In this document: piece after piece, positions 24,665-55,939 of the stretch | Layout: each line of letters opens with the position of its first letter | How positions within the stretch are numbered: the stretch's first letter is position 1 | From: Apostichopus japonicus | Lineage: Eukaryota; Echinodermata; Holothuroidea; Aspidochirotida; Stichopodidae | Assembly (NCBI RefSeq): GCF_037975245.1 | Contig: NC_092571.1 | Coordinates: 28,066,564-28,130,563 of the forward strand | Direction of reading: 5' to 3' | DNA length: 64,000 nucleotides | Notes under the pieces: model-generated | The model's input: only the letters and a program-made list of their open reading frames with translations | The model's database searches: none | What the model was told of the DNA's origin: nothing | Translations under genes and position numbers: made by a program

Positions 24665-24699
24665 TCTTAAACTTGGTAAGGCAAAAGAAAACATTCATT

Positions 24700-33780: not shown

Positions 33781-33795
33781 AAGTAAATGGATAAG

Positions 33796-35341
33796 TAGTC
33801 GGACTGAAGTTAAATGCATGCGATGTTAAATAGGAACTAAATTGTGGTAACCGGTGGTTATTGAGGAATGGTGTATTTATCATTATTATATTAATCATAA
33901 CTATGCCTTACATCTGTATGACCTTTTAATCTTGATTGTACTTAAAAAAAAAAACATAAAAATTCAGTAATTTCATTATATTCTGTATTTATTTTCAATT
34001 TGCCTTTCCATTTATACAGAGTATGTAACTTCATTTCGAAATTAACTCTGTTTGTCTTTTTTTCATATGACACAATGCCTGATGGCATGCCTTAATACAT
34101 GAGCCTCGAACGGAGAAACAGTTAAAACTGTCCATCATTGTGATTGGAAGAAAATAGAATACAATCGTCTGCACTATGACTTAATGCAGATACTGTGATC
34201 CCTCTGAATATATCACTATGATGCAGACAAATTAATTTAAACTGGAAGAAAAAGCATTATAGTGTTAAACAATTTGTCGATACAAAATATTTTCAAACCT
34301 GAAAAGTTGCAGTACCTTAAAAAGAAATTAATTAAATTGATACAATGGTCACTCCTAGCTCAATTAAGTATAGTTCATACTCTAGAACGGAAAAACGTCT
34401 TTAAGTATATTAGTTTCATGCATTCAAGGTGGTATTTGCGGGAAAGAAATTTAGAAAATAATATTGGTTACATTAGGCACTATATTGATCAGTCTTAGAA
34501 AAATTAACATGGAGATGGAAATTACCTCAAACGTAATGCCAAGCACAATTATTCAAGGTGGTTTGGGGGAAAACATGGTGTTTAGAAACAAATATTACGT
34601 AAATTAGACACTCTTTTGACAAGTCTTAGGAAGGCAACATATAGGTAAAGACTACAGATTGAAATGTACAGAAAAATCACAATAAGGCTAGTGTAATGAA
34701 TATCTAATTAATCATTAAATTAAGAGACTACAAGATAAAGAAAACATTGTTACAAAATTACAAAACATCAACAGAGTGCACACTGCATTAGGTTATTTCT
34801 ATCAATGTTCATTTGAATTGTACAAAAGAAGAAACTACAAATCATGGAAATGTTACAGCACAAACATCACAACTATTCATAGAATATTAAATCAACTGCA
34901 TTGTACCTTCTGGAATGCAACACTAATATATCTTGCAAAGTGGAATTGTTTTCACATAACAGTAAATAGTAAAAAATATATTTAGCTAACAAAATTTACC
35001 AACTGGGTTATGTCACCATAGCTGATATTTTGTCTATTTCTGAAAGAAAACCTTCGCTAGTGGAAGGAAGCTGAGCATTTTTAAGAGTCAAACCAGTATT
35101 CCAACAGTTATAGTCTCCACTTATATCAAAGCTAGCATCATTTGCACCAGAATTGTTCAATACAGTGACTGATACATCCAAAAAGAACCTTTATCAGAGA
35201 TGCATGTTATCATACATATGTGAAACTAAAAGTTCAAGTACGCTTGAGGATTCTATAAAAAAAAATAATAATAAAAATAAAATTATCCATACCATACTGA
35301 AAGACTGAATGTGGCCTTAAATCGGATAAGATCATTTGATA
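33796..35341. other. Intergenic or 3' untranslated sequence, no gene seen
   Basis: AT-rich sequence downstream of the KY gene (minus strand). It probably includes its 3' UTR, but I see no canonical AATAAA on the minus strand close to the stop codon. Confidence 0.4.
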
Positions 35342-36746
35342 TCAAATTTTTTGAATAAGGTAGTTAAACACATGAGTGAATGGGATTCCTTGTAAGTGAG
35401 CTTCTTTTGCAAAAATCTTCAGGACAAAAAACCCTTTAGGTTTTAAGTCCACAACAAAAGAGCATTGCTGGTTTGCCGTCTGCATTTGCACATCTTGATG
35501 CATTTCCCTACCCTCATGGTAGAAATGGAACACAAATTCACGCTGCTGGTAATGTCCTACCTCTATAATCAAGATTGATCCCTCGGCCACGATAAAGGGA
35601 TCGACATTTGAGATGGGAAATAGTTCAAGCCCATCGAATGCCTTCGTTGGGCCCCATTGTTCGTGTTCACGAAGCAGCGGGAATGGCTGCACGGAGGGTC
35701 TTGCAGAATTTGCGACGACCAGGTAGCTGCAGAGATGAGCTGGGTTTGAATGTCCTTGATACACCACAAAGATGTGAAGACCGTAACGATCTGGACGGGG
35801 CGGTGCAAATGTGACTATTAGTTGATTATTTACATTCCGTTGCATTGCATATGGTTTCAGATGGGACTCATCTTTGCCCCAAGCTGTCAATGAATGGTAG
35901 AAGGACATCTTCATCGTCATCTCAAACACTATGTGGGTATTTCGATTGTCCTGAGAGAAGATGACACCAGTACGGTGAGAGACGGGGACTAAACCAGCGT
36001 TCATGACCCCAATGGGTCCCCAGTGGTCTGCAGGCGCCAATGGAAGGGGCGCAACGTCCTTACTGGGGGCATGACAGTAGATGAGATATCGGCAAATCTC
36101 TGTGGGGCTTTCCACATTCAGTTCACCATCGATGAATTGTCTTTTAGCAAAGAGAGTTAAATGAAAGGCGCCAACATCTGGAATACGAACATAGCAAGCC
36201 ATCACGTTATCGCCCACCTGATGGATGAATTCATATTGATCATACAAGATGCCTTGGGAGGATTTCTCACTTCCTGAATAGGCCTCAGAGAGACGGCAGG
36301 ACAACAGAAACCCTGGAGGACACGTTATCTTGATGTTTATCTCGCCGTACGGTGCCTGGAGGACAGCCTGTGTGTGATCGTGGAGACCAAAGCCATACTT
36401 GAAAAAGTCAGGCTTAAGGAGAACAGCTTTGTTGAAAACTTCTAGCGTGACAGCTTCCCGCAGCAACTGCCAGGAGGAATCATTTGGAAAATGGCTGGAT
36501 ATTATGACCTCTGGGTCAGCCAAGAAGTAGTGCTCATCATATTCAAATCTGAATGGGTCAAAGGTCACTGATCCAGGAATGTGAGAAACACCCCAGTTGC
36601 AATCAAGAAAATGCCAGTAACCATCAATTCTCACTGCATTCCAGGTGTGATGGTGAGAAGGGTCTTGAAAGGAGATTTCCGTACCAGGAGTATAACCTTT
36701 CATCTTGGCAATCCCAGTAATCTCAACACACTGTAGACTGACAAAT
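35342..36746 (-). other. Terminal exon 15: KY His/Asp and C-terminal beta modules
   Basis: The chosen acceptor AATTTTTAG|ATTTG yields MCRFVSLQCVEITGIAKMKG, keeping family spacing. An in-frame AG 9 bases further in is an alternative. His codon at 36,649-36,647 (HTWNAV), Asp at 36,604-36,602 (LDCNWG). YFLADPEVIISSHFPNDSSW follows, a block I recognise as typical of KY/hillarin proteins. Two related modules begin HWGPIGVMNAGLVPVS and QWGPTKAFDGLELFPIS. The frame ends in TGA at 35,342-35,344. Confidence 0.8.
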
Positions 36747-39700
36747 CTAAAAATTGGTAGAATGAAAGTGTAATATTTAAATTTAACATTTAAAGTAGCC
36801 TGTGAACAACAATTTTACAAAGGACACAGTCTTATTCAGTGGCTTGTTATGTTCCTAGTGGAGTAGTTAACAATTCTGGGATATTAATGCCCTATGATAT
36901 ATTCTGTTAAGTACAACCTGTCTTCTAAGGAAGGCATTATTTACAATTGTGTCCACACCATACATGTTTTCCAAAGCATAATTTTGACTAGGTATAACAA
37001 GTTTTAAAGTAAAACATACTTCACACATGGCAAGGTTAAGGTTTTTTTCTTTATTCTCATTATTGCTAGAGTTACTGACTTGCCTCTGGTACTTTGACTC
37101 CAGTCCAATTCGATTTGGATACTAAATATGGGAATTGTTTGACAAGTCATGTAAACATCACCAGGTTTAGACAAATTAACATTACTTGCTACCAATTAAC
37201 AATTTTGACTTAGCCATCTAGCTTCTTACATGATGAAACAAATTATCAAAGCCTGATCAAAGAGCTGTCTGATTATTTAAATGACATCTCACTTTATCTG
37301 AAAAGTCTGCTGTGCTGAACCTGCCTACCAGGAACAGAAGATACAGCTGCAGTGTATGGTACTGACCACTTTTGGTTTCTCTAGCATATCAAAGGCCATG
37401 TTTCATTTCAATTGCAAAACAACTGGGTATTTTAATCACAGAATGTGTTTTCAAGTATGAGATACTTCAAAATTACCAAATTAAGAACACCAATGCTCCT
37501 TCTTAATTCTATTATGTTCACTTTAGGCTCAACACAGCAGCGGCCTAAAGGAGAAATGCTCACCTGCACATACGCATAAACAATGTCGAGAAGGTGATCA
37601 TTTTCTGGTAAAGGCCCTTCAAGACTCCAAGAGGGGTGTCATCGACTACATCATTGAGGTTCATTTCGTCACAATTCTGTGCAGTGATCCAACGAAAGAT
37701 CAGTCTTGCCTTCTCCAGCTCTGTGATACCTATGCTGGTTAGCTCATTCACCAAGGATGAAAAGGTTGGTTGAGTCACCAGGCTGACTGTCTGGGCTAAC
37801 TACAAAGAATGCCAAAACAAATAATAGTCATGATAAATGAACAAAGCGTTGACCCCATCGGGCAGGGAAGAAATGTTAGCTGCCTGACTCCTCATGTTGT
37901 AGGGGCATAGAACCATTGGAATAATTTAAGATTGTTTACACTTTCTATATTCTGTTGTGTTTTGTGATGTTAGACAAACCCTCTAGAGTTTTTTTCTGAT
38001 TGTGTTACTGTAGCAGCTCTTTAAATCATGCCTTCACATAATTCTCACACTCATAATGCTTTTTCACTATTTCTTACTTATCTGAAGTATTTATTCTAAT
38101 CATTACTTCTATAACATTGTAATACTTGCCACAGTTTCTAATTACCTAACCAAAAGGTTAACTTGACCATTTGAATGCAGTACACCTTGCAACAAAAACA
38201 GAGTACAGATGAAAATTGATAGATTTTCTTCAATTACTTCTGATTAAAAACTGATTATTCAGAATGAACACTTACTAACACGTGTCCAAAGAAAAGATCC
38301 ATTTTGCAGACATAATTTTCTAATGCAATTTGAGACTGCACCAGTATGCAATGTGAACTCATCTCATCCATCTTAAAGTTACTTTGGAGTTTTATAATTG
38401 ATGTTGCTCATCAATTAATACCTCAGTCTCAAAATAAATGTTCTACACGAGGTCAACCTTGTTGGGCCTGTATGGAAACAGCTGTGCAAAACTGAGTTCA
38501 AAACTTGAACCACAAATATATGGAGTAAACAATCCTCTATACAAAATTGAAATGTTGAACATAGTGCAGAATGATTCAAATAATCAATGATACTTTGATA
38601 CAGTATAAGTATATATTCAAGTTCATCTTTATACCTAAGTATACATTCAATATGATAAAATAACTTTCACACAGTCTGATATACACTTGCTGTAATTTTT
38701 CTTAAATTAGATTTTTTTTTTTAAATCAGTGATAAAAGCATGGTTGATCAGTTTGAAGGTCCCCTTTGGGTAGAATAATTATCCCAGGCAGTTTTGTAAA
38801 GCTTTATCAAGTCTACCTCATTTAAATTAATACAGAGTTGCTATATATTTTCTTAAATTTGATTTGATTATGTAGTACAGCTAAGTTGATCAGTACGAAA
38901 CTACCGCTTTACTGATCAATTGTCCCAGACAATTATAAAACCCAGCTATAAAGTCTACCTCATTTAAATTTGACAAATACTCATCGCAGCCCACTGCTCT
39001 CAATATTTCCACCTACAATCTACCCAGGTAATGACCATTTGTGTACTGATCCTTGTAGTTTATCAATACTTGTGAACTTTGGAAATTGAGAAATAACAAG
39101 TTTTGTAATATATTATAACCTTTTACGAGGAAGCATCATCATAACATGTCTATTGTGACTGATAAATACAGAAACCACCTCTATCAAGATACTTAACTAC
39201 TTTATGATGATACTGTATCGATTGTTTAAAGCGACAATTTTAGTTCCTGCAAACATGATCGAAAAGGAAAGAAAAAGGATCTCACCTACACAGAAAAGTT
39301 AACCATGATTCACTTCATTTCAATAATCAATAACAGGCTAAAATTGCTAAAGCATTTCAAATCACGTTCGTATTACACTAATCCATCTGAAATAAGTGAA
39401 AAATCTGATGTAATATCAGGGCCCGCTGACAACCTTGAGCACTTCCAACATAATTGGAGTCGATACGTAGTACTGTTTTAAGTTAGCCTTTATATCATTG
39501 TAATCACAGACATGACATACAGTAAGTATATAAAAAGATACCAAATTTAAGTCTTCTTATCAGCTGTCTCAGGCATGATTGTTTGGTCAACTCTATTTCG
39601 CTTTCTAAAAATATAAATCTTGTATTCTTAAGGCATGTGTAATATAAATCAAGGTACTGAGTCAACATATATCAAAACATCTTCTTCTTATCCTCTCTTG

Positions 39701-42700
39701 GATTATATTGAATTACTCCTTCTGGTAACTAAGTCTCGCAAATTTGACAATATCGCAATCCAAACTGACATCTGCAAACTTGATCAATATCGCACATTCC
39801 TCTTTTTTTGCCTCCCAAGTCTTCTGCATCTCAAGTTTCATCTTCTCTTCGTGTACTCTCTTCCGCATCACAGAGACATTCTGACAATGTTCCAACAGCA
39901 TCAGATCCAGCTCTTCATCTGGTGAAATTTTCCACTCCTCTTTAAGACTAGCTGTAATTGTCAGATTATACACTTCCAAATCTTCCTCTAAATGTGTTAT
40001 TTCCTGCTGAGTTAAAACTGTTCCATCTCCTCCCAGGGGCTCTTCCACATCTGCCAGGGTATCTTCATCAGAACCTAGCCTGCCCGCCTCTTCATCCTCT
40101 AGAATTGCAAAAATAGCCTGTTCATAATCTTTCAAGTCCAGATCAGTATCTTCCATCATGACTGCTGTCTTCTCCTTGTCCCTAGTCTGGTAGTAATTCA
40201 TGTTCATGTCAGATTCATGAGATGGAATAAAGTCATCCCTTGCTTCTGATTCCTCATTCTCCTTGGTCTTCGGATATCTGGACCTCATGACAGACTCTCC
40301 CTCTTGCAGAAATGTTGCTGGAGTAGCACCCACTACTGAACTTTGGCTGTAACCATTCCCTTTGTGCATTGGCTTCTCTCGTACAAACATTTCCTCATCT
40401 TCTGAGTCTTGAGATTCACCGCGACATTTGCGATTGTCATCTTCATCTATTGATGCATCTCTCTGAGTTCTATCTCTACCTCCGCTAGTTTCTCTTCTTT
40501 CTGGATAATCGTTTACCAAATGGGGAGTATCTGCACCCTATTTATAGGAAAAGCATGCAACTCAACTAAAAATATGACACATAAATCGCCGAAGAAATCA
40601 TAAAATCATGAGGAAACAATATTCAATACAGCTCCTAAGGTTTAATCCACACTGTCACTATGAGTCTAAGTTTTAGGAAAACTCTAGTTTTCCTGTTAAA
40701 ATTTTACATAGCGCAAAAATAGCTTCAATTAAAAATGCTTTAAATAAAGATGAAAGTTTTGGTCACCATGTTTATTTAAAATAGTGGTTTACTCTCCAAG
40801 ACTCAGAGACATGCCTAGTTTAATAGTGATTTATCAAGGGTTTAGTGTTGATTACCTATTAAGGCGATCTGTCCAGAGATACATTACTAGTTGGTCAAAT
40901 GAAATACTGGGTGTAGTAAATTTCAACGAATTAATTGTGTTTGTGCACTTTAGAAACTTGTGATGAAATGGTAACAATGTTCACATAATGGAAAAAAAAT
41001 TGAACCGCTTACTTTCCTTATTACTAAAGAACATGTCATGTTTATAAATAATGATAATAATAGCGTAAGTCAATAACAAACTGAAGCAAACTCATTCTTC
41101 TTGTTAAAACCTGAACAGAACTACAAAACTGTTTTCATATCACTACTATTTACTTCATGCTATGCAGTTCCATGTATAAAAGAATGTACTAAAAAGGCAG
41201 TTCAGAACTAAACAATTGTACAAGAAGAATAAGGTATGACTGTATGAGCAATTTTTTAAATTTCAAAACATCCCTAGTTTCTTTATTGAACACATATAAA
41301 CAACGAAGGAACATCAATGTTTTGGAGAGATATTTATGGTTTATATGGATACATTTGGTGAGATGAAACTTGATCAACTTCAATATTAAACAGATGAAAC
41401 TAATGTCACAAGGTAAAAGTTAACATGTGGTGATTGTTGATGGATAAACATCACAATGCCACAGTTTACATTTGAGTGTTATTCACACTTAAATGCTCCT
41501 GATATCATTGTTTTGATCTACTGTACCTTTAAAATATCACAATACTGACAGACTGCAGCAGAGGTGAAACAGACTATATAGTAATAGATACATACCACCA
41601 CTTTCACTTTAATATCACAGATATTATCTCAGAATTTATCCGGTATCGCATCACAAAATGCAATACCAATTTGGCATATTGCGATACAAGTGTAAACTAG
41701 ATGCATAACAGTTTTGTACATAGAAACCATAGTATTTTATTACAGACAACTGAAAATTCATGCAGAACATTCAAATCTGCTGCACAAACATCAGAACTCT
41801 AAGATATTCTGATGAAAGGTAACCTTATTAGCGCAATGCAGTCACTTTGCTACGATGTGTTAAAATATCACTTGTCACTTACTTATATGAACAGAGATGG
41901 AATGGATAATGTAAGTGGAATTGTTTATAGGACAAATGACCACAATACAAGACAGGATAATGTTGAGGGTGCATCAGGCAAACATTAATTATAAATATGG
42001 CAATGGTTTGCATTGGAGATATTCCCAAACAAAACTTATGGATAGGAGATTTACTTTATGCTTATTTCAAGTAGCAAAGAAAACTGTAAATGAAAAATGA
42101 ACTAGGTTTATAGAAATTTGGGAAAAGTTGTGGCAAACAATGAAATCTGGCATGTGCTTATCCATGCCAATATGTTTTAAACATAATATACCATGGATTT
42201 GACTATGCAAAAGTGTACATTAAGATGATGATAATATTGAACCAAATTTTGATTAAATTGTGGTGAGTTATTAAAGATACTGAATAAGGTGGATACCATA
42301 GCGGATCTTTACTACAAAGAAAATGATACACTCAATTACAACCATTGAGACAAAAACAAGGTTCTGTACTTTGAGATTATTACATTATCAAGTTCATTAT
42401 AAAAAATACATGTTTTAAATGTTTAATTTCACTTACTCTTATAGCGTGGGCATCAAGTTCTCTGAAGATGGACGGATCAGTGTACAGTTCTTGTTTCTTC
42501 TTTACTGGGTATTCTTCCGCTAAGGGCACTATCAGGACATCATTTGATTGGATGGGTGTGGTCCAAAATTGTGTGGCTACTAGTTTAGCCATGGTCTGAT
42601 TCAATTCTGGGAGGTCTTCAAGCTCTTCATCCTGCATTAAAAATCACCAAAGAGAGATAGAAAGAAAGTGACCATAGCTGGGAAAGTGGTCTCGGTTTCA

Positions 42701-45700
42701 CTTAAGAAAAAAAACCTTGATGACATTTGGATGTCTGATTTATTGAATTGAATCTATTCTCAACAATCGGAAATGTGGCTTACGCAGGTCGTAAACGGAC
42801 CAAAGAGCAATAGTATAGGTATCAATAGACTGTGATACACATACAGTAATACAAACATACATACAGCAAGTCCTACAAATAAGAAACTTATCTTCTCATT
42901 TGTGAATTAAATATATGAATAGAATTAGGCACAAATGAGTATCTGTAGTGGGCCCTAAGTGTATGTGGTGGGCATAAACGCAGTCCAGAGCGGTTGTAAA
43001 TGTAGTGCTCAAATAAGGGGTGTGTTGGGTCTTGCATGATTTGTTTCACTTTATTGCAGACCCTCTCATGATACAAGCACTCTAACGAAGGTAAGTGAAC
43101 ACCGATAACCCGCTGAGCAACTTTCCTAGCAACTAATGTACAGAACAAGACAGAAAAAGAGAAGCAAAGGATTTCCAAATAAATTCACCTATTGATTAAT
43201 AAAGTTAATGACTTTGAAATGTGTCCGCCAAACAGTTCATTCAAGGTGGATGGAATGGATAGGCAGACAGAATTACAGTAGTGTACTTGACTGTATCATT
43301 GACATTTGATATGGAACTTTCAACTTTAAGCAGACTGCACTATTATGAAGTTAATATGTTATGAAGGTAGTTTTTAATGTTTCTCAATGTATAATGAGAT
43401 TTACTCTGCTAAATTGCAAGATACAAGTTTCTCATTTTGCAATGGGTATACAGCATATTAAAATTGTCAAAAGTACATTCCCAGATGAACTTTACTTTTT
43501 CAATGATTTGCACATTTGTTCCAAAGGTACGGGGAGACATACGAGTGGGAGGAAATATGTATTTCAAACACACAATCAAATATTTTCAGCAGATTTTACT
43601 CATTTTATCAAAGCAATATCAAACTCCTTTCTCTTACACTCATGTCAACTACAAATTCATTCCCTCACAAGTAAGAAATCTCTCCATGATGTCATGATTC
43701 TAGGGAAACTTCTTTTTTCATTTTCTTACCTCATCTTCATCCTCACTGCTGCTGACTTCATCTTGATAGTACATTGCTGCAACATTCACCTCCTCTGTCT
43801 CTCCCTCCTCCTCTACCGTAGTAACAATCTGAGCCTGCCTCATTGCCAGCTTCCTCCTCATCTTTTCCTCCATCCTCAACCTCTCATTCTCCAGTCTGTT
43901 CTCCAAGGACTCCATGTTACGACGATGCTCAGAGATCATCAGATCCAGTTCCTCGTTGGAGAAGACCCCTCTATTACTCTCTAGGCTCTCATGGATTGCC
44001 CTTGAATATTTCTTCAGGTCCTCTTCAAGATGGTTCAAATCTTCCTCCGACAATGTTTCCAAGTCTTTCGTTTGATTCTTCTCCTGCAAATAAGTCAACA
44101 TTTCAAAATTTCGCACTTCTTTTTAGTTTTGATAAATGACCCTTCAAAAATATGAGGCACATCAATTAAATTGCCATACACAGAGACTATAAGACCAGTT
44201 CGTCGATCAGATGTAATGCAAAACTCGGTAGGGTAACAAAACACTTTCCTGACCTCAAATCACATGGTTACAATGCATTACAAACTTGCAGTAAAGGAAA
44301 CACTGTGTCAAATGTCATTGAAACATGTACTGTTGTTCATATGAAGATCAAGGAACATATGATTTGGTTGGGTTCTTAGAATTTACAACAACAGATTAAC
44401 ATAAATAGTTTGGTCAACACTGAGGAGGTGGCATCATCATAGGAGTAGGAGGCGGGGGGCTGGGGGGGCTACAGCCCCTCAAACCCAAAATTTTTGTGAA
44501 AATTCTAGCAATATGGTGAGAATTTTTTGGGCACCTACTGAAAGAAGAAGAATTTGCAATATGTTTTTCAATTTTTTTTGGTGAGAATTCGGGCAATATG
44601 GTGAGAATTTTTCGGGCACCTACTGAAAGAAGAATAATTTGCAGTGTGTTTTTCAAGGGTTAAACTGATATTATTAATTATCGTTATTATTGTAACAACT
44701 TGCCAATAATTATAACCAATATGAAAGGGTAATAACACGGCAAATGATTGTATGTTATTGGCATGTGATGTAATAAACGATGAATGCCTATAAGATATGC
44801 ACATTAACATGTTGAATGCGGGCAAAAATGTCGGTTATATTTTTCTGACAAGTCGTTACAGCCCCCCACCCCCCCCCCCCAATCAAACTAGGCTCCTGCG
44901 CCTATGGGCATCGTTGTCAAATTAACCTTTAAGATCAAGGTTTCTGAAACTGAGTATCTTGGAAACCTGAATAGCTATAGAAGCTGAACTGTATATGCAT
45001 GTATTTTAGATCCTCCTACAAGCAGGAACTCGCAAAGAAGCCACCATTGACTTATCAAAGCCGCATGCTGACCGAAGTCAGTCTCTTACATTCATATTTA
45101 ACGTCCATGATTATGAATTGTCAATTGTCAACAACTCTGTAACTGGACGACAAACATTAATCTTGGAGTGACTCAAACTCGGGACCTTATGATTGAAAGG
45201 CACCAGCGTTAACCATGGCTGTTCAAATGTTTCCCTTTATGTTAGGGATGACATATCAATACAAACAGTCTGCCTATAGTCATCATTTTACTGGTTATTC
45301 TTTAATATTACAGAGGTCTTTTGAGCAAAGAAGATACACATCACAGGATTTGAAATGATCATTTTTTCCAGTTATCTCATTGAATCTGGTGGGAATTTCA
45401 ACATCAAAATGTTATTTCAGCAATGGAAACTGACTGCATTAAGGTTCTTCTGAATACCCAAAGTTTGTTGTATTAACTTGCCATGGGGATCAAAATTAAA
45501 GGTCATGGATATGACGTCTCATTGATCATAAAAATCAGTCATAACTTCGCTTACCAGAATAGACATGATGTTAACAAAATCTGCCTCTGACTCTAACTTC
45601 AGCTTCCTGGCAGCCCTTTTCTCTCTTAATGCGTCAAGCATTCTCTGTTTTTCACGTGCCAGTCTTCCGTTAAAGTCCTCCATGTTCCTGGCGTGTTCCT

Positions 45701-48700
45701 CCATCAGTTTATTGATCTCTGCCTGAGATATCTGACCTTTCTTTCCAGCTATCGATGACTCCACGAAACTGTCATAATCATTGATTTCCTTCTCGACTTG
45801 CTCAATCTCATCCTCTTCCAGGCGGTTGCCATCATTATCCTACGAGAGTGAAATATTTATGTTATTAACCCCACTAGTTTGAATTCAACCAATCAGAGAT
45901 GCAGGTTTAGTTATGAGCCGTTGCTAAAAATAGATTCAAGACTTTGTGTTGGTACAACCAGGGAGTTGTTATGGAACTCCCTGGTACAACTGCCATATAG
46001 AATGTACACAAATCAAGTATGGTGTTGTATTACGTATTGGTCAATGACATTCGTAGTGTTTAAATATTCATATTATGGGCGAGGTTTATTGGGATCCCAT
46101 CGGAAAATATCTTGGAGAAAAACAAAGTTGAAAGTTGCAAATTTTTCGTCTTTTATGCCACCATTTGAAGTAAGATTTAAATAGATAAGCTAGTTATGTT
46201 TGTCCTTATGGCATAGTGGAGCCAGTGAGGTTGAGAAAAACCATAGAAAAGGACGCAAAATGCTGCTTTAAAGCCGAAGATTTTGAATGGAGCAGAACAA
46301 AGTAATTTATACCTGGAACAGGATTTGATCCAGAGACCTCTGGTTTACAAGTTCTGCGCTCAACCAACAAAGTTATCCAACACTTAGTTTGTGATAATCC
46401 CTATTTCTGGCCATTTCATTGCTGGGGACACCAGTCATTTGCTTGCATATCCTGTAACCTGTATGATGGCTCAGTATCATTCCATATAACCCAGAAAGCA
46501 GCAGGAAAAGTGATTCTAAGCAATTCCATTCACTTACTTACATCTCTGAATTAAACCAACATTGCTTGTTAAAGTGCAACTCTGTGTATTACATAAATCC
46601 ACATCTCTTGCCTCTCACTAACTTGTAAGGGTTCCCTTTTGTACATAATATCTGAAATTCCTGAAATAGTTACTCAAAGTCCCATTCCAAACATACTTTC
46701 CCCCTTACTTAACTTTCAGCAATGAGAGTTTAATCTCATGTTCCTGGTATAAACCCAAAGAAGAATAAAACACTTCTCAGAATAGGAGATAATTACTTTT
46801 CTTTCTTGTGTAGGATCATATCTCTAGGGAATGTACATACAAGATTTCTTACATGATGTGTATTTCAAGCTAAGACTACCAATCATTTTAGAGGCTCACA
46901 GAAATCCCCTCCCACACCCTCACCCATACACACACCTCAAATAATTTTAAAAACTCTCGTAACTACAAATTCTACTTTGCAGGGCAAAAAGTCAGAAGAG
47001 AGAACTTCCCTCACAATAAGAGAAACTAATAATTACTTGTTTTCTTGCTCATACAACTTCAATTTTCTGCAAGTATGCAATTCTGTAAATGTTTGCTCGA
47101 GCAAACAATGACACCCCTAACTTACCACCCCTCCCTCCCCCTCTTCCCCCTACCTGTCCAATACCAGCCCTATGAAACTGCCACCGGACATTGTAATACT
47201 GTAAAGTTTGACAAAAACATTCCACTTACAAGAAGAGATAATAATTCCTTTCTTTCTTGTTCATGTGAAATCATCCCCCTTCTTCTTCTTCTCCTTTCGT
47301 CTAACTTATCCTGGAAGTGTTGTCTCTGCCTCTCCTGGCTCAATCTTAATTTCTCTCTCAAGTCTTGCATCTCTTGCTGATGCTGTTCCACCAATCGTCT
47401 GTATTCTTCATCGGACAACTGTCCTCTCCTTTCTTCCACAGCGGTCTGGAATGTTGCTTCTCTCACTTTGATTTCTTCTTCTAGATTAACAATGCTATGC
47501 ACTGATTGATCCTTTGCAAACCAAAAAACAAAACAAGTAAAACAATAAACAACATACTAACGAATTAGAAAGTAAAATTAAAAGACACATGTGATATAAA
47601 ATAATAACAACCTGGAAGGCAGTTATTTTACAATTTTAAGGCAGCAACATATATGTTCACCATGTTTGAGTAAAATAGTTCTTGCAGATAACATTTAGTT
47701 CCAAACAAAATTTGAAAGCAGGAGCCCAGACCCCCCCCCCTGTCCTGCCCCCAACCACCCCCTCTAGTTCCAACCATGCACACTTACGTCTGCCTCGGAT
47801 ACTTCTCCTCTTCTCTTCCGCCTCTCAGCAAGCTTATCTTGAAAATGTTGTTTCTGTCTATCTTGACTCAATTTCAGCTTGTTTCTCAAAGTTTCAATTT
47901 CCTTACGATGCTGAGCCAACAGACGTCGATAGTCTGCATCTGACATCTTTGATCGTTTCTTCTCGACTTCAGCCTGGAAGGTGGCCTCTTTCATTAAAAT
48001 CTCTCTCTCAAGCTTCTGAACGTCTTGGATGGTGGACATATTATCCTACAGAATTATGATTGAGACAAAATCATGAAGCTAAATGAATGCATGGGTTTGT
48101 ATTTCTCTGACTTAATCAGAGATTTCAGACTTCATCAAATCAGAAATGCATTTAGGGTACTATTTTATTGCACTTGGTAAGGAATATGACCAAACCTGTT
48201 GAGTATTACTTGCAATAAGGTGGCTATTGTTCATAGATTCTTCACCAAACACACATACATTGATTCATTGTTTGGTTGAGTCAGTGATTAATACATTTAC
48301 AGTATTTTGAGAGTTCTTTCAAGCTCCAACAAGTCTTTAACTTTGACAGACTGAACATGGTAGCATTCATCATCTTCAAACTAGACAAGGCAACAATATT
48401 CCATTGCGGCCCATCATATATTCAGGGATGTGCCCAGGATTTCCTGAGTGCCAGTTTATACTGATCGCCGTCCTGGGGGAGGGGTCTAAGGGGGAGGGGG
48501 TGTCTCCGATTTTTGAAGGTGCTCAGATGCCAAATGCTGGCACTTATTTAGCTTTTTAAGCACATACACAAGTACTAGTTTTGCTAACAATTTACATTTC
48601 TTGTTTTTTTTTTTAGTGAAATATATTACGTACCTGGTAAAAGTTATAAGTTTGCCATTAGTAGGTAACTGATGCATTATTAGTCTGTATGATTTCGGCA

Positions 48701-51700
48701 TAGGCTAGGCTCAATTTATGTTGAATATATTGTAAGGAATGTCGGAATTTTAGATGAAAGTAATGCTGGGCGGGATTCACGATTTTTAAGACAGTGCTGG
48801 GCGGTAATTTTTAGTGCTGGGCGGGGCTGCCCAGTGCCGCCCAGCGTGGGCACATCCCTGTATATTTATAACATAATGTAACTAGTTGACCGATCCATTA
48901 TGATAACTACCTCTCCTGTTGGATTTTCAGGTTTCATTTCCACATTGACGGCAGATGTTGGTCGCAGGGCACGCCTGGCAGCAAGTTTTTGTCTCAATTT
49001 TTGGTCAGACAACTCTCTCTCTTGTTCCAATCTCTTTTCCATTGACTTCATCTCTTCGTGGTGCTGGTCCAGAAGCTCTCGGTATTTCTCAGATGAGATT
49101 TTATTTTTCTGACCAGCTATCTTCTGTTTCTCGGAAGTATTTTTGATGTCCATCATAAGTTGTAACTGCTTCAGTTCCTCTGGAGAGAAACATTTCTCTT
49201 GACTGCTTGCATGCTGCCCCTTTAACAAGAGAGTAAGGTGAAGGTAAGCTAACTCATTTTCCAAATTTAAATTAATATTCTATGATACAGTGGCACCTGA
49301 AGATATGCATAATACAGAGAAGCCAACTAGAGCATATGACTTTGTGTTGCTACTACTGATTATGATTATGATTATGATGATTATTATTATTATTATTATT
49401 ACTTGTTTCATCAAATAGTATAACAAGGTGAACAAGACAATAAACTGCAAACAAGTTTAAAATGTGAAAGCAAGTAAACTAAAGAAACCCTTTTGGGCTT
49501 AATCGAATAGAGTACTTTCATCAAAGAAAGTAGATAACCTTAACACCTACTAAAGAACTCCCACCCCCCCCCCAAAAAAATAGATAACCTTAACATAAGA
49601 CCTATAACACTACCCACCACCACCACCACCAACTCCCACTCCTTACAATGGATACAATCAATAAAGGCTTTCAGAGTAATTTTTCAGATGTTGCCTGAGC
49701 GAAGCCACAGAAGTATAAGTTTTCAAGTTGATTAGAAGATTGTTCCACAAAGAAGAGTGTTTATCCATGCTGACTGAAACACCATATGTACTCATTCATC
49801 CATTTTTCAAATATGTAGATTTCTTTACCATATTTTAAATTTAATTCACAACAACAAAGGTTTCACCCAAACCTGTAATAGGAAACACAACAGAGCTGAC
49901 ATTATTGTTCTAACCTTTGTTGTTTTCTTCCTCTGATTCAGTTTCGTCATAAGTTCCTGCCTCATCCTGTCTCTCTCTTCATCTAGTTGATTCTGCATCT
50001 CCTCCATCTCAGAGCGATGTCTGTCTATCATCCTCTGACAGTCCCCTGCAGACATCTTTGTCTTGGCATTCTTCAGGTCATCTTTAAATGATATTGCTTT
50101 CTGGTTCAAGGCTAGCTGGAGTTCCTTCACCTCATCTGCAGATAAATTCTGATCCCCGAGGAACAGAAAATGCAACAAAATATTAGAAACTGAAGCAAAA
50201 CGGTTTTGTAGAATGACTATTCCACAAAGAAGTATATGAAGAAAGATTTACGACCATATCTTAGGTTATAGGTTTCAGCAAACTGAATAAATACACCATT
50301 GCTATGAAACAAGTGGATAGTCATCCCCTATTAGTCATCTTTGCCAGTTAGCCATCTTTATAGTTAACTGTGCAGTGGTCATAAGTCACAGACTGTTGCA
50401 GTTCTGAGATATCCAACTCTGTTCGTGGGATGATACCAATTACCCATAATATCTTTAATATGAAAGGGTGATAGTTAGAAGCCATGCATTTCACCTAGCT
50501 CTGACCCCTTAGAGCAGAATAGTGATTCCACAAGCTTTGTTTATAAAGTTTGTTTGTCAAATTTGGGCTTAACTAGTCATTTTTCTATATTATTATATTA
50601 ATTCTCTTATCTTCATTTTATTTTTACATTTCCTTCAATCTTTGTAGATGAAGCAAGCAAGCAAACCAACCTCCTCTATTCCACTTTCTCTCATATTTCT
50701 GCGAGCAGCCAGTTTGTCCAACATCTCCTGCCTCTGTCTTTGTCTCTGTAGAGCCAGCTTTTCCTGCATCTGTCCAAGCTCCATCTTATGTTGGGCTATC
50801 AGTTTCTTATAATCGTCATCTGATGAAAGACCCTTTTTCTCCTTCAGCTCAATATCAAACTGTTTTTGCCTTTCTTGGAGTTCTGCTTCAAGCTCCTGTA
50901 ACTCCACAGCAGTCAGTGCCTGATATATAAAAAATACTTAATCACTTTCTCATTCTTTAAAACAACTGATCGATAGGTTATTACTTTACTAATAATCAAA
51001 TCAAATATCAATAAAAGAAAGAGAAAATATTAAATAAGAGAGCTTCCTAGTCTTTTTCAAACTACAGTAACTTTTCATCAACAAAATGGTTTTTGTCGGA
51101 TGAGCAAACCAGCTACTGACATAGCTGAATTTGGTATGATCACAGCTGGCAAACCTTCAATGCATCAAAAACATGGTTCAGGTACAGTGAACCATGGTTT
51201 CTACGAATGTTGAATGAATGGGTAAAGCTGGTGGATTCACCAACATTATGTAACAGTTTTTTAATCTAATATTCTCTTGCAAAACTAACAATTGGATGGA
51301 ATGTTTGGAGGAAAGTTCATGGATTAATATAGCATATTGACAAGGACTTTGTAAATTGACAATGAACAATACTCTAGAGATAATCAGGTGGGAAGGTGTC
51401 AGTCTGTGGGCAAACCATGCAACCCCTAAAAGGTTCAAAACCGTATAACCTGGGCCTGGAACCTTATTGCATAATTATTCAGAAATTATACCTCCCAAGA
51501 TATGCTCATTGACACCTACTTGAGAAAACACTGAATGTGGCTCACTGTAAATCAGGGTAATGACAATGAAATACCACCCACAAAATATATAGCAGACATT
51601 TCAATTTATATAATCTTGGCAACATCCGGTGTTTCATCCCAAAAACTGCTACAGTATGAGCATATAATATGAAGATGAAGATATCAAGTTCAACAAGCTG

Positions 51701-54700
51701 ATTGACAATATAATTGCTGTTTCATTACCTTCTCTGACTTCTTTCTTTTCCTGGCAGCTACTTTATCTAGAAAAGATCTTTTTTGAGTTCCCATCTGATG
51801 ATTCAACCGTTTCTCTAATAAAGCCACCTCCTCTTCATGCTGCTTCAAAAGCTTCTCATATTCCGCTTCCGAGAAGTTTTCTTTCCTTGATTCCACTTCT
51901 CTGTGGAACTTTGACACTTTTTTCTCAATTTCTTGGGTCACAGCAAGTTGGTCTGATGTTCTAAATTTGTCTTCTTCTTCCTTTTGAGAGTTTGCTCTCT
52001 GATATCAAGAAATGACAACAAAATAATCCTCAAGCGTGGAAATCACACTTCAGTCTCTAAGATTACTCCCAGAAGCACTTCAACTGAGAATGGCACCATC
52101 AATATGACAAACACAAATGAAATATCAAATTTTATCTATTCCGCTATTCTTAGTCTAGCAAAACAAAATGGAAAAATCAAAGAAAATCTGTGAAAGACAT
52201 GACTTACTCGCTACTTTAGCTTGGAACCTAATAACACATGTTACCTGTATGCATCTGATAAATTGTGAAATATGGATAGAATTTCCCTAGATTAAACATG
52301 ATTTGTAATACTCATAATGTAAACAGTATATTTTGCACTCAATGTAGTTATGAAGCGATAGTAAATAGAAACATAATAACATTTACTTAAATGTTATTAA
52401 TTCCCTCTAACAGAACTCACTCGTCTAAAGGCAGCCTTGCACAACCATGTGCTTAAGGTTTTCGAATCGCAATGTATCTCATTTGATATTCAGTTTTCTA
52501 GAAGTTATATATTTTTGTATGATGCCATATTTGTGACATGTTGCATACTTATTTCAGCTTGCCTGTCAGCTTTCTGCTATTCATTTTCTGATATACTTTA
52601 TATATCTGTTTGTAGAAACTGCCTTTGGAATATCTGAGGTATTGAACTACTGTATTTATATCATTATGATTATGTCTACTGAACTGATTGTGTTTATGCT
52701 TCCATATTTTGCCGCAAAGTGAACATTAAACAAAGCACAACCCCTCAACTTCCATATCTTCATTCTATACCTTATTACTTTAGGCAAAATTTCTTTAACA
52801 GGAATGTTCCAAGAACAACAGTGTACTACTGTACATTAACAACTATTTAGTGGCCAAATATGAAAGCATAAAGATAATCAGTTCAGTGGACATAATCATC
52901 ATGATATAAATAGTTCAATACCTCAGATATTCCAAAGGCAGTTTATTCAAACAGATATATAAACTATATCAGTAAATGAATAGCAGAAAACCGATTGGAA
53001 AATTATAGACGATGGAAAAGAGCAAAGAGATTTATGGTTTAATACAGGATTCGAACCAGTGACCTCTGGGTGAATAAATGACAAGGTAGTTAAGTTCCAC
53101 ATGAAGTATACACAGAAAGAGGATCACAGAAAATTGAGCAATCTACACAGAGCAATCTACAAATAGCAGAATATAAATTTGATATAAAGGGAAACTACCT
53201 ATCCATACTGTACACAGTGTACAGGACTGAACTCAATTTTACATTTACAGTTTAGTACAGCCTTAATACCGAGCCAAAACCACTGTTCTTTAAACAAGGA
53301 TGGACAAATACCATATTTTCTGCAAGGAGCTTCTCTTGCTCTTTCTTTTCAGCAATGCGAGCTGCTCTACGCTTCTTCCTCTCGGCTACTTTTGACCCAA
53401 GTTTTAGCTGATGTCTCTCTTTCTCTCTCTCTCGAAGGATTTCCATAAGTTCCATTTCTTGTCTATTGTAAAATGAAGAGAAAGCTAATTTATCAGTACT
53501 GTAGTTGTAAAAATTCTCTTCAGTTTGGTACAGCTATCAAAGGTCAAGTTTACCATTGGAAAAGGGAAAATATTTGTGAATAATCTGTACAGTTTTATCA
53601 TTCAAATGAATTCTTGACTAGTGCACTTCATTGCTGTAATGATAAGGATATCAAATATTTTCACCATATATGCAAAATAAAGAAAAGCCAACTAATGGGA
53701 AATTCGTCTGGAATGGATGATAATTTGTCAAGGCAATGAATGAAATGTAACAAAACTTTTGTCTTGAAAAGGAAAAAACCTTGTCTTGAATCCCAGATGA
53801 TGACATACTTGTGATTAGCTATCATTTGCTGATATTCCTGCTGGGATAGCTTTTCCTTCTTTTCTTTGATTGCCTGCTTAATCTTGACACGTCTTTCCTT
53901 TGCATCTTCCTTGGCGAGGGAGGGTGAGGGCGTCTTCGGATCAGATCCATCTAATGATGTAGCCACGTTCTCCCAGTCTTCGTCGTCACTGTAAACAACA
54001 CCAGATATCTATAGAGAGAAGAGGAGGAATAATGAGGGTCATATGAAATCAGCTGGGAACGACTTGACTCGACCTTAGGATGAAGTCAAGTTCGACTTTT
54101 ATGAAAAGCTGAGTGTGAACAGAACTTCCTCCCTGACATAATTTCAAATATTACACTCACCTGTCTCTGAAGAGGAATGTGCAGGGGACTGCTCTCCGGA
54201 GTAAAGTTGATGTCATCATTATCATCGCCGACAGTCTCAATGTTGGTCACTGTTAGGGATGCAGCTTCCTGGAGATAACTCTGGAAATCACTGTTGGGAG
54301 CATCAAATGTCTACAATAGAAGGAAAAGAAATTCACTTTTTAACAGTGATAAAAATTGTCAAAAATCCTTAAATTTACCATGCCAATGTCCAGCAAAACT
54401 AGCCAATTGTATAGCCATAGGTCCGTAACACTTTGTTCTACTATTGAATTTGAGTCCTGCCTACTGTACTTGGTTTTAGTCACAGTGATGCATAGCACAT
54501 GACCAGGGGGGTAAGGAAGATTCCAAAAAGTAGGGGGGGGGGCACAACATCAGAGGGGCACTTTCTCATTCCACCACCACCAATGATTATGCTATAAACC
54601 GATACACACCGGCAATATCACTTAAATATGATGTGTTAGTATGCTACCAATACCATTTATTGAGAATTGAGATTAATTGTTTATTGTTAACCATGCTACA

Positions 54701-55939
54701 AAAAGACTGTACAAGACTAAAACTAAATAATTCAAACACAATATTAAAATAAACAAAGGCTTAAGATATCCAAAAGACAGTTCTTCATCAAAGGGGCACA
54801 TTTTATTTGCCAGTAGGGCACATTGCCCCAGTGCCCCCCTCCGGCTCCTACCCCCTGGCACTGACATATTTACTGCCATTCCCATGTAACATTTCCATCG
54901 AAATTGGTTATCTACAGACCAATTTTTATAAGGTTTTTCTTTTTCCAACTATATAGTAATTGTTTCTACACTGTAGAGACTGCTCCTCTAATGCAGAGAG
55001 TGAATTAAAATAATTTTACTAAAATTACCTTTGAAACAATAAATGTCATTCTGCCATGCTTGTGTGAATATGAATAACTAGTTGTGTGTGTCACTTACAA
55101 AATAGTTTGCACAATGTGCCTTGTATGCACAAAAGATACAATTATTGGCGTATGTCTTGGGAGTAATTCTGCTTGATGCTGAAAGTTTTCATTTAATCTA
55201 CCATTTCATTCAAATTCAAATCTTTAGCTTTTGTATCTATAATAATATAAAAAGAATTATAATGATCAGCAGTTATTTTTATGTTGCTTAAGTGATGGAT
55301 TACACCTTACACGTCGGGCAGCTTTACAATTCAACATTTTAACTCAAATTTGGAATCTTTTCAATTTAAAAAGTCATTTCAGATGGGAAAAACCGTAGAC
55401 TGCTCTACAATGAAAAACCCACCTTACTATGATCCCGCCAAGGTATCGAACCCGGAAACTCCCTGATTGCTAAGCCTCATGCCTTAAAATGCCAAATAAC
55501 TCAGCCCCCATATTGACACTCAGGAAAAATTATCATTTTAGTAGAACTAAAGACACAAAATGTAAACACAAGTAAATAAGGTTAACTTCTACCAAATATT
55601 TATCATTGTATGTTCCATTATGCCCTCCCAAGCAATCAAATAATTTACATTTCTCATTTGTAGACACAGAATTTCACTCTCAGAATAATTTCCTTGAGTT
55701 GTCAATTATTGACTAACCCCAATATCTTGGTTTCCGATCTTGACTTTGTATTTACTTGGTGCTACTTCTGTAAGCTTGGCTGCTCCCAAAGCTGATGATC
55801 TATCAAAACCGCTAGCAATGTGACCCTTGACCTTTACTGGTTGGGACTGTCCAGGTACTACAATTTCAGCAACCACAGCAGTGCTACTGGGATGCTTGGT
55901 TTGGGAAGGTCGTTGCTTCTTTGAAGCACCAGACCCCAT
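35342..55939 (-). CDS. Myristoylated, repeat-bearing KY/hillarin-type pseudo-transglutaminase (~1,599 aa, 15 coding exons)
   Basis: Rebuilt exons, high to low: 55939-55718, 54310-54161, 54008-53809, 53462-53312, 51998-51729, 50919-50671, 50148-49915, 49219-48911, 48045-47788, 47511-47230, 45839-45555, 44083-43730, 42631-42437, 37799-37564, 36746-35342. All have AG/GT borders and compatible phases, mostly phase 0, and concatenate without a stop. Domains: MGSGASKKQ, a strong N-myristoylation motif (1-9); acidic linker (~75-140); nine ~56-residue charged repeats (~170-960); acidic linker (~960-1010); KY/hillarin transglutaminase-like domain (~1040-1190) with His1165 (HTWNAV) and Asp1180 (LDCNWG) but Met1120 at the expected catalytic Cys; two beta-rich modules each opening with W-G-P. 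KY and hillarin proteins are cytoskeleton-associated; here a membrane-tethered scaffold is the likely role. Internal phase-0 exons could be skipped, so the true transcript may differ. Function inferred, architecture seen. Confidence 0.8.
37564..37799 (-). other. KY domain exon 14, with Met at the catalytic Cys position
   Basis: Acceptor TTCTTTGTAG, donor CAG|GTGAGC, 236 bp. It encodes LTSIGITELEKARLIFRWIT (family helix L-x-K-A-R-x-I-x-x-W-I-T), then DDTPLGVLKG and YQKMITFSTLFMRMC. In the family consensus the last part reads C-x-G-Y-A-x-L-F-x-x-L-C; here the first Cys aligns with the Met encoded at 37,601-37,599. Confidence 0.75.
39713..40537 (-). CDS. Alternative terminal exon: acidic region plus a tenth repeat, then stop
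   Basis: It lies between exons 13 and 14 of the KY gene. The acceptor ATAAATAG|GGT opens a phase-0 frame that would follow exon 13 directly. It encodes 274 residues: a charged, probably disordered region (RDRTQRDASIDEDDNRKC, DSEDEEMFVREKP), then EEPLGGDGTVLTQQEITHLE, then a tenth repeat (DEELDLMLLEHCQNV) clearly derived from exon 12's NEELDLMISEHRRNM, and a TAA stop. Splicing to it would give a ~1,327-residue protein with no KY domain. No canonical poly(A) signal is visible within ~200 bp. A weak in-frame donor (GAT|GTCAGT) before the stop could make it an internal exon, but that would interrupt the D-x-H-A entry to the KY domain. Expression unproven. Confidence 0.6.
   Translation of the reverse strand, partial: GADTPHLVNDYPERRETSGGRDRTQRDASIDEDDNRKCRGESQDSEDEEMFVREKPMHKGNGYSQSSVVGATPATFLQEGESVMRSRYPKTKENEESEARDDFIPSHESDMNMNYYQTRDKEKTAVMMEDTDLDLKDYEQAIFAILEDEEAGRLGSDEDTLADVEEPLGGDGTVLTQQEITHLEEDLEVYNLTITASLKEEWKISPDEELDLMLLEHCQNVSVMRKRVHEEKMKLEMQKTWEAKKEECAILIKFADVSLDCDIVKFARLSYQKE
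42437..42631 (-). other. KY gene exon 13, linker into the KY domain
   Basis: Acceptor TTTAATGCAG, donor AGA|GTAAGT, 65 codons in phase 0/0. It ends DPSIFRELDAHAIR; the D-x-H-A motif is the usual entry to KY/hillarin transglutaminase-like domains, which supports direct splicing to exon 14. Confidence 0.75.
42888..43178 (-). pseudogene. LINE reverse-transcriptase C-terminal tail in an intron
   Basis: The frame contains DPTHPLFEHYIYNRSGLRLC and RYSFVPNSIHIFNS. The pattern H-P-L-...-S-G-x-R-L-...-R-x-S-F-x-P-x-x-I-x-x-x-N-S is the C-terminal signature of many non-LTR reverse transcriptases. There is no upstream RT core, so it is a 5'-truncated copy inside the KY gene intron. Confidence 0.65.
43730..44083 (-). 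other. KY gene exon 12, repeat 9
   Basis: Acceptor TTATTTGCAG, donor GAG|GTAAGA, 118 codons in phase 0/0. Repeat core VFSNEELDLMISEHRRNMES, ending MRRKLAMRQAQ, then an acidic tail EVSSSEDEDE. The long plus-strand frame over this exon (43,361-43,984) is its shadow. Confidence 0.8.
44438..44906. mobile_element. CATAGGCGTAGGAGCC-family MITE, most complete copy (469 bp)
   Basis: Ends CATAGGAGTAGGAGGC and GGCTCCTGCGCCTATG are inverted. The flanks GGCATCAT (44,430-44,437) and GGCATCGT (44,907-44,914) are an 8-bp TSD with one mismatch. The interior has a direct duplication of a ~90-bp block (ATGGTGAGAATTTTT, GGGCACCTACTGAAAGAAGA) and G/C-runs at both ends. It lies in a KY gene intron and has no coding capacity. 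Confidence 0.8.
45160..45235 (-). mobile_element. tRNA-like SINE head
   Basis: On the minus strand, AGCCATGGTTAACGCTGGTG (A-box-like), CTTTCAATCATAAG (anticodon-arm-like) and CCCGAGTTTGAGTCACTCC (box-B-like) occur in tRNA order, but stems are imperfect. Intronic. Confidence 0.5.
45555..45839 (-). other. KY gene exon 11, repeat 8
   Basis: Acceptor TCTCGTAG, donor CTG|GTAAGC, 95 codons in phase 0/0. It starts acidic (DNDGNRLEEDEIEQVEKEIN); repeat core QISQAEINKLMEEHARNMED, ending REKRAARKLK. Confidence 0.8.
46312..46385 (-). mobile_element. tRNA-like SINE head
   Basis: On the minus strand, GTTGGTTGAGCGCAGAACTT, GTAAACCAGAGGTC, then box-B-like TCTGGATCAAATCC. The tRNA-like order is preserved, stems are degenerate. 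Intronic. Confidence 0.5.
47230..47511 (-). other. KY gene exon 10, repeat 7
   Basis: Acceptor TTTGCAAAG, donor CTT|GTAAGT, 94 codons in phase 0/0. Repeat core QLSDEEYRRLVEQHQQEMQD, ending FQDKLDERRRRRRG; shares LKLSQDRQ/LRLSQERQ and QHFQDKL with repeat 6. Confidence 0.8.
47788..48045 (-). other. KY gene exon 9, repeat 6
   Basis: Acceptor TTCTGTAG, donor GAC|GTAAGT, 86 codons in phase 0/0. Repeat core KMSDADYRRLLAQHRKEIET, ending FQDKLAERRKRRG. It is closest to repeat 7, suggesting a recent tandem exon duplication. Confidence 0.8.
48423..48860. mobile_element. MITE with CAGGGATGTGCCCAGG ends (438 bp)
   Basis: CAGGGATGTGCCCAGGAT at the left and GCGTGGGCACATCCCTG at the right are inverted repeats. 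Only TATATT (6 bp) is shared by the flanks. It carries the GGGGGAGGGGTCTAAGG hairpin half and two GTGCTGGGCGG motifs. Intronic. Confidence 0.75.
48911..49219 (-). other. KY gene exon 8, repeat 5
   Basis: Acceptor TTGTTAAAG, donor GAG|GTAGTT, 103 codons in phase 0/0. Repeat core KISSEKYRELLDQHHEEMKS, ending LRQKLAARRALRP, with a non-helical tail PTSAVNVEMKPENP. Confidence 0.8.
49358..49401. repeat. (ATT/ATG)n microsatellite
   Basis: TGATTATGATTATGATTATG merges into a pure TTA run to 49,401. Confidence 0.9.
49915..50148 (-). other. KY gene exon 7, repeat 4
   Basis: Acceptor GGGGATCAG, donor AAG|GTTAGA, 78 codons in phase 0/0. Repeat core KMSAGDCQRMIDRHRSEMEE, ending LMTKLNQRKK. Confidence 0.8.
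50671..50919 (-). other. KY gene exon 6, repeat 3
   Basis: Acceptor TATATCAG, donor GAG|GTTGGT, 83 codons in phase 0/0. Repeat core LSSDDDYKKLIAQHKMELGQ, ending MLDKLAARRNMRE. Confidence 0.8.
51729..51998 (-). other. KY gene exon 5, repeat 2
   Basis: Acceptor TTGATATCAG, donor AAG|GTAATG, 90 codons in phase 0/0. Repeat core NFSEAEYEKLLKQHEEEVAL, ending FLDKVAARKRKK. Confidence 0.8.
53038..53100 (-). mobile_element. tRNA-like SINE fragment
   Basis: The minus strand has ACTTAACTACCTTGTCATTT, CACCCAGAGGTCACTGGTTC and GAATCCTGTATT: a box B (GGTTCGAATCC) with a tRNA-like arm ahead of it. Intronic; too degenerate for a functional tRNA. Confidence 0.45.
53312..53462 (-). other. KY gene exon 4, second half of repeat 1
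   Basis: Acceptor TTTTACAATAG, donor ATG|GTATTT. It completes the split Lys codon and reads QEMELMEILREREKERHQLK to the basic VAERKKRRAAR, ending in phase 0. Confidence 0.75.
53809..54008 (-). other. KY gene exon 3, linker and first half of repeat 1
   Basis: Acceptor TCTATAG, donor CACAA|GTATGT. It encodes VVYSDDEDWENVATSLDG then the helical IKEKKEKLSQQEYQQMIANH. The exon breaks (phase 2) just after the conserved His of repeat 1. Confidence 0.75.
54161..54310 (-). other. KY gene exon 2, acidic linker
   Basis: Acceptor CTATTGTAG, donor CAG|GTGAGT, 50 codons in phase 0/0. It encodes TFDAPNSDFQSYLQEAAS and an Asp/Asn-rich stretch (VGDDNDDIN), probably disordered. Confidence 0.7.
54504..54857. 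mobile_element. MITE with CAGGGGGGTAAGGAAG ends (354 bp)
   Basis: Left CAGGGGGGTAAGGAAG and right CGGCTCCTACCCCCTG are imperfect inverted repeats, with G-runs and GGGGCACTTT/GGGGCACATT motifs near the ends, as in the 7,358 and 57,879 family. Flanks GCACATGAC and GCACTGAC may be a decayed TSD. Intronic. Confidence 0.6.
55312..55360. repeat. ~50-bp block shared with 19,354-19,405
   Basis: CACGTCGGGCAGCTTTACAA then TTCAACATTTTAACTCAAAT matches 19,354 onward with few changes, in the same orientation. Here it sits about 80 bp from the tRNA-like SINE head at 55,430-55,500, so it may be that SINE's body or tail. Confidence 0.6.
55430..55500 (-). mobile_element. tRNA-like SINE head
   Basis: The minus strand reads AAGGCATGAGGCTTAGCAAT then CAGGGAGTTTCCGGGTTCGA and TACCTTGGCGGG: A-box remnant, anticodon-like arm and box B GGTTCGATACC. 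Intronic. Confidence 0.5.

Follow-up and report, generated by a model that had tools for sequence, protein, structure and literature searches.

The closest described systems for the gene analyzed here are proteins of the KY (kyphoscoliosis peptidase) type, which are tied to the muscle cytoskeleton, FAP246 (7n6g), which we take to be an axonemal protein, and fungal Cyk3. KY is described as keeping its putative catalytic residues (PMC6078408), and Cyk3 as a protein that acts at the division site and has kept His and Asp but lost Cys (PMC4758748). A member with a membrane-anchor signal and an arm of countable hairpins, whose units can be deleted exon by exon without a frameshift, would be a natural ruler for how the apparently non-catalytic core of such proteins is positioned. 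A candidate for such a member lies in a stretch of 64,000 nucleotides of Apostichopus japonicus (contig NC_092571.1, positions 28,066,564 to 28,130,563), which is referred to below as the window.

The kind of protein is decided by the two ends of this gene, an N-myristoylation-type start and a KY-like C-terminal part. Between them lie nine copies of a repeat that is unnamed as far as the searched libraries show, which makes for an unusual KY-type architecture. We give roughly even odds (about 0.5) to the reading that a membrane-anchored N-terminus, an arm of nine hairpins and a non-catalytic KY head form a membrane-to-cytoskeleton scaffold of the KY/Cyk3 kind. The repeat itself is real, and its likeliest role is that of an ordinary structural scaffold.

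The gene was assembled from splice sites and open frames on the minus strand, and comprises 15 exons and 1599 codons, with its ATG at 55,939 and its stop at 35,342. All 14 chosen introns are GT-AG, 12 of them are in phase 0, and the frame is continuous and phase-consistent. Donor sites were scored against a 9-position consensus with a threshold of 7 of 9. An earlier note on this DNA had dealt with the interval 43,730-54,008, which stops upstream of the KY-like part. The features are as follows, in window positions; scores in bits for the units are leave-one-out profile scores.

55718..55939, minus strand: exon 1, 74 residues, starts MGSGASKK, the Met being the first in its frame downstream of a stop; donor GGG|gttagt, phase 0
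54161..54310, minus strand: exon 2, acidic linker of 50 residues; GT-AG, phase 0 at both ends
53809..54008, minus strand: exon 3, beginning of unit 1 through the His; phase-2 intron in the codon following the His
53312..53462, minus strand: exon 4, remainder of unit 1; exons 3 and 4 together 48.5 bits
51729..51998, minus strand: exon 5, unit 2, 90 residues; 49.0 bits
50671..50919, minus strand: exon 6, unit 3, 83 residues; 68.1 bits
49915..50148, minus strand: exon 7, unit 4, 78 residues; 58.9 bits
48911..49219, minus strand: exon 8, unit 5, 103 residues; 52.7 bits
47788..48045, minus strand: exon 9, unit 6, 86 residues; 76.3 bits
47230..47511, minus strand: exon 10, unit 7, 94 residues; 75.7 bits; modelled as a hairpin
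45555..45839, minus strand: exon 11, unit 8, 95 residues, class Tyr17/Asn47; 57.8 bits
43730..44083, minus strand: exon 12, unit 9 and acidic tail, 118 residues, class Tyr17/Asn47; 72.7 bits; modelled
42437..42631, minus strand: exon 13, acidic start, leads to the KY-like domain; GT-AG, phase 0
37564..37799, minus strand: exon 14, transglutaminase-like core part 1 (Pfam Transglut_core on joined exons 13 to 15), place of the catalytic Cys apparently Met (alignment with KY paralog L028)
35342..36746, minus strand: exon 15, core half with His and Asp (HTWNAV...LDCNWG), three Ig-like_KY domains (PF23265) and stop
39713..40537, minus strand: open frame holding the tenth unit (class Tyr17/Asn47), a possible alternative last exon of putative use; 34.6 bits, E = 4e-8 to exon 12

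The KY-like C-terminal head

Exon 15 matched the Ig-like_KY domain (PF23265) in three stretches, with E = 2.4e-44 and 151 bits against a cut-off of 27. As in the KY family, these domains are preceded by a transglutaminase-like core, here a weakly matched candidate. In the PDB, the C-terminal 611 residues matched FAP246 alone at E ≤ 10 (E = 4.3e-7); the match covers 137 residues of the transglutaminase-like/KY region and spans the His/Asp half, whereas the repeats were unmatched in FAP246 at E ≤ 0.01.

The His and Asp motifs of the core are kept, as aligned with the paralog L029. At the place of the catalytic Cys the window gene has KMITF, and L028, the only one of the four paralog loci to yield this stretch, has GVIGL, without Cys; the Cys column was placed by the presumed Cys position of human/vertebrate KY. 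The catalytic Cys appears to be lost, with Met in its place in the window gene and Val in L028. This differs from KY, whose putative catalytic residues are described as kept (PMC6078408). Cyk3 is alike in having a transglutaminase-like domain with His and Asp present and Cys absent; it differs in its own N-terminal SH3 domain, and the available part of its description mentions neither hairpin repeats nor a myristoylation start (PMC4758748).

At E ≤ 0.01 the Ig-like_KY domain is matched 11 times in the genome: the window gene accounts for three of these, and the remaining eight fall in four further loci on contigs C1 and C3. Unlike the window gene, these four KY-like loci were not matched in the genome searches with three window units. 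Two of the loci, L026 and L027 (C1:17.08 and 21.39 Mb), are near-identical and lie 4.3 Mb apart on the same contig; either the locus was duplicated recently or the assembly carries it twice.

The repeat unit and its invariant histidine

Nine units were found in the gene, one over exons 3 and 4 and one in each of exons 5 to 12, and a tenth in the open frame at 40537-39713. The nine-fold repeat with an invariant His that had been proposed earlier was confirmed by scoring each unit with a profile rebuilt without it. The ten units scored 34.6-76.3 bits, with the caveat that the other nine rows keep the ten-row register, which slightly favors real units. The best shuffle reached 16.7 bits, and the real score was reached by 0 of 2000 shuffles per unit (1000 shuffles of residues and 1000 that keep the seven-residue phase). 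In the ten-row alignment the His column alone is invariant, with Ser33, Lys69 and Arg73 each at 9/10, and an invariant column arose in 0 of 20,000 within-row permutations. The Ser of the motif as first described is present in nine of the ten units, with Pro in the other.

The earlier note had put the unit at about 56 residues, which is too short: the actual unit has about 85, and the 56 are its better-conserved half, the loop and helix B, helix A having been missed. Exons 5 to 12 encode 78-118 residues each, their lengths are all multiples of 3 and their boundaries are in phase 0, which bears out the symmetry that had been claimed for them. The accompanying statement of one unit per phase-0 exon holds for these exons but not for unit 1, which is split by the phase-2 intron after its His. 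Phase alone would allow units to be gained, lost or skipped without frameshift, as had been proposed, but no evidence for its occurrence was seen. The identity of the units to that of exon 10 is 16-51%, and exon 9, the nearest to exon 10, matches it at only 9 of the 21 third bases compared, which together indicate old duplications. The units are old and divergent; no sign of recent gain or loss was seen, and the phase-0 symmetry permits turnover without showing it.

In the AlphaFold2 model of the exon 10 unit, a helix at residues 2-27 is followed by a loop and a helix at 34-93, with a mean predicted local distance difference test (pLDDT) score of 89. The model of the exon 12 unit has helices at 13-36 and 43-85 around a loop and a mean pLDDT of 77, with low confidence at the start and in the acidic tail; in the hairpin parts of both models, ten-residue blocks have pLDDT values of 88-96. 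The predicted unit, about 85 residues long, is a hairpin in which a 6-residue loop links a short helix A to a long helix B that has a basic extension. Hydrophobic stripes run along helix A at positions 7-10-14-(17)-21-25 and along helix B at 37-40/41-(44)-48-51-55, in column counts.

Searches of libraries gave no credible family, in agreement with the earlier view that the repeat is not a named one. With the joined 988-residue repeat part, Pfam gave no family at E ≤ 1, and for the ten units singly the best E was 0.0041 (Mitofilin) among 25 of 28 families shown; scores were below the cut-off for the unit of exon 10 and for the frames holding exons 6, 9 and 12, the other units being judged on E-values only. 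The repeat profile run against 177,635 PDB sequences gave a best E of 0.21, with the best noise at 14.9 bits. With the exon 10 model, Foldseek yielded nothing at E ≤ 0.001, its best E being 0.56, and the best VIA match had Z 9.9 and a root-mean-square deviation of 6.9 over 93 aligned residues, within the range noted for helical bundles. The matches from both comparisons are generic helical hairpins only, which leaves room for families outside the VIA list. Among the papers listed in literature searches, nothing was seen on the repeat or the architecture, most subscription papers being outside the coverage.

His44 is present in 10/10 aligned units, including the one at 40537-39713, and its column is the most informative among those filled in at least nine rows (5.35 bits, followed by Tyr37 with 4.08). 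It lies within the a/d hydrophobic stripe of helix B and is the sole steadily polar place there, while position 17 (K/R/Y) is the mostly polar place of the helix A stripe. Lys or Arg at 17 occurs with Glu47 in seven units, and Tyr17 with Asn47 in three (exon 11, exon 12 and the tenth unit). Given this place of the His, it is simpler to regard it as a putative intramolecular contact to helix A within the core. A polar layer of 17, 44 and 47 would fit the 17/47 pattern better than a metal site, and a buried structural layer is the likelier role.

If the gene encodes a membrane-to-cytoskeleton scaffold, a lipid on Gly2 would hold the protein at the membrane and the nine hairpins would serve as a stiff or elastic spacer. 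Inside each hairpin His44 would stand opposite position 17 of helix A, in a polar layer of K/R17-His44-Glu47 (seven units) or Tyr17-His44-Asn47 (three), and this layer would set the register of helices A and B. The basic helix ends, K-L-A-x-R-R/K, may make contact with acidic lipid or with polymers of the cytoskeleton. The C-terminal module would bind a cytoskeletal partner in a non-catalytic manner, in line with the prevailing view of KY and Cyk3.

Several points weigh against this scaffold. The cytoskeletal partner is presumed, and the start MGSGASKK is of the N-myristoylation type (Met-Gly-x-x-x-Ser), its lipidation being putative. Transglut_core (PF01841) on the joined exons 13 to 15 reached E = 0.0029 and 18.3 bits, below its 23-bit cut-off. 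The splice sites were picked with the repeat already known, the donors of exons 4, 6 and 8 score below 7 of 9, and we infer the join of exon 12 to exons 13-15 from phase, splice sites and an acidic run over the junction. The two AlphaFold2 models, for exon 10 with nine alignment rows and for exon 12 with the rows reordered, are of single units from one shared alignment and are not independent. The antiparallel pairing (i+j of about 61-62) would set 17 beside 44 if the stripes pair, which follows from the stripes and not from coordinates. The units of exon 11, exon 12 and the tenth form a clade (support 96/98, in a tree with six end branches flagged long and 5/7 inner forks open), so the 17/47 switch is a single event; it is not statistical covariation and does not prove coupling. 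Columns 21 and 37 set the two classes apart as well.

Alternative readings of the locus

The strongest alternative, although an unlikely one, holds that there are two genes, a repeat protein that ends in the exon at 39.7-40.5 kb and a separate KY-like gene from exon 13. The tenth unit does lie between exons 13 and 14, which are separated by a 4.6-kb intron, and it has an acceptor and a frame closed by a stop. On the other hand, the junctions of exons 12, 13 and 14 are in phase 0, their donors reach 7 of 9 or more, and the acidic run crosses from exon 12 into exon 13. No AATAAA or ATTAAA was found within 1500 bases past the tenth-unit stop, and the open frame has no donor at 7 of 9, with one GTAAA-type match near its 5' end; both arguments are weak, since exons 4, 6 and 8 likewise fall short of 7 of 9 and the first signal past the exon 15 stop is about 1350 bases away. 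Among three unit searches of the genome, the tenth unit was matched by exon 12 and not by exon 6 or exon 10. The earlier note had placed this copy on an alternative exon; the unit and its His are there, but its use as an exon is putative. It may be an exon, an alternative end or a relic, and the one-gene and the tenth-unit products may both exist as isoforms.

We consider it quite unlikely that each His is a metal or pH-sensing site, nine of which in a row would make the arm zinc- or proton-responsive. Its presence in 10/10 units that are otherwise divergent speaks for such a role, as does its place in the core stripe, where protonation would disturb packing. A metal site was rejected, since each unit has a single invariant His and a second invariant ligand is absent, position 47 being Glu in seven units and Asn in three. 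Of the specific contact or metal site suggested earlier, it is the contact, with helix A, that is favored.

It is improbable that the repeats are the tail of a ciliary coiled-coil family of the EVC2/limbin type captured by a KY gene. The sole PDB match to the KY part, FAP246, presumably axonemal, would suit this origin, as would an apparent resemblance of human EVC2 to the repeats. Putative EVC2 fragments scored 14.1 and 7.1 bits, against the best PDB noise of 14.9, and EVC2 was set aside on the ground that these fragments are at noise level. The EVC2_like model (PF12297) matched nowhere in the genome, which is uninformative, as the controls were silent too.

A more far-reaching proposal, also improbable in our view, sees in the repeat an animal module not described before, a 'His-locked helical hairpin' shared among several otherwise unrelated genes. 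In the window protein, its nine buried His would make the membrane-anchored arm a switch of stiffness or length that responds to pH, metal or tension and couples a non-catalytic KY head to the membrane.

Whole-genome searches with three units listed 30 matches, of which 25 are window-gene units and five are weak rows on one C4 and three C12 places. The weak places, with E of 0.1-7.3, are C4:24121185, C12:12660085, C12:20611217 and C12:20604133/20604100, found with window units, and C2:6872579, found with a C12 unit. The ten-unit profile gave 26.7 bits for a C4 unit (24.12 Mb) and 29.7 and 26.3 bits for two C12 units (20.60-20.61 Mb), all three with the His and a basic helix end as in the window gene, compared with 14.9 bits for the best PDB noise. 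Because the places had been chosen beforehand for their similarity, these scores do not amount to statistics of the whole genome; the E-values come from small preselected sets, and the His adds to the score, so that its retention is biased upward. The next two candidates in the C12 stretch are without the His (17.1 and 13.7 bits), and the next (10.2 bits) begins past it. Reverse searches with the C4 and C12 units led to window-gene units at E of 0.3-5.9, weak alone.

The C12 stretch (C12:20592500-20622000; L017, L018 and L030) is receptor-like and unlike the window gene, with Ephrin_rec_like exons upstream and an apparent membrane helix. It also has numerous frames of charged helix, some of them with the His motif and the weaker candidates without it. 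Since two other genome places carry the motif, the repeat is not private to the window gene. It merits a family entry, as it recurs elsewhere in the genome and is without a family in the Pfam scans.

A plain low-complexity coiled coil of the trichohyalin type, aligned by composition, is very improbable: the units are rich in E, K, R and Q and have long helices, but 0 of 1000 heptad-keeping shuffles reached the real score of any of the ten units, which strongly disfavors it, and no PDB sequence fell below E = 0.21 with the profile, as fits the earlier claim of more than a plain coiled coil.

Other features of the window

Three further observations concern other parts of the window. The intron between exons 10 and 11 contains an interspersed repeat at 46000-46272 that has at least 39 other genome places at 93-96% identity, among the 40 scored of 1489 first-look candidates; this element is probably young and abundant. 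At about 29700-33800, on the plus strand, broken open frames resemble a non-LTR (long terminal repeat) retrotransposon, as recognized by eye. On the minus strand, an open frame of 283 residues lies at 23843-24694; the 231 residues that were scanned contain an immunoglobulin domain (PF00047, E = 2.2e-5, above the cut-off), and the frame possibly encodes a cell-surface immunoglobulin protein.

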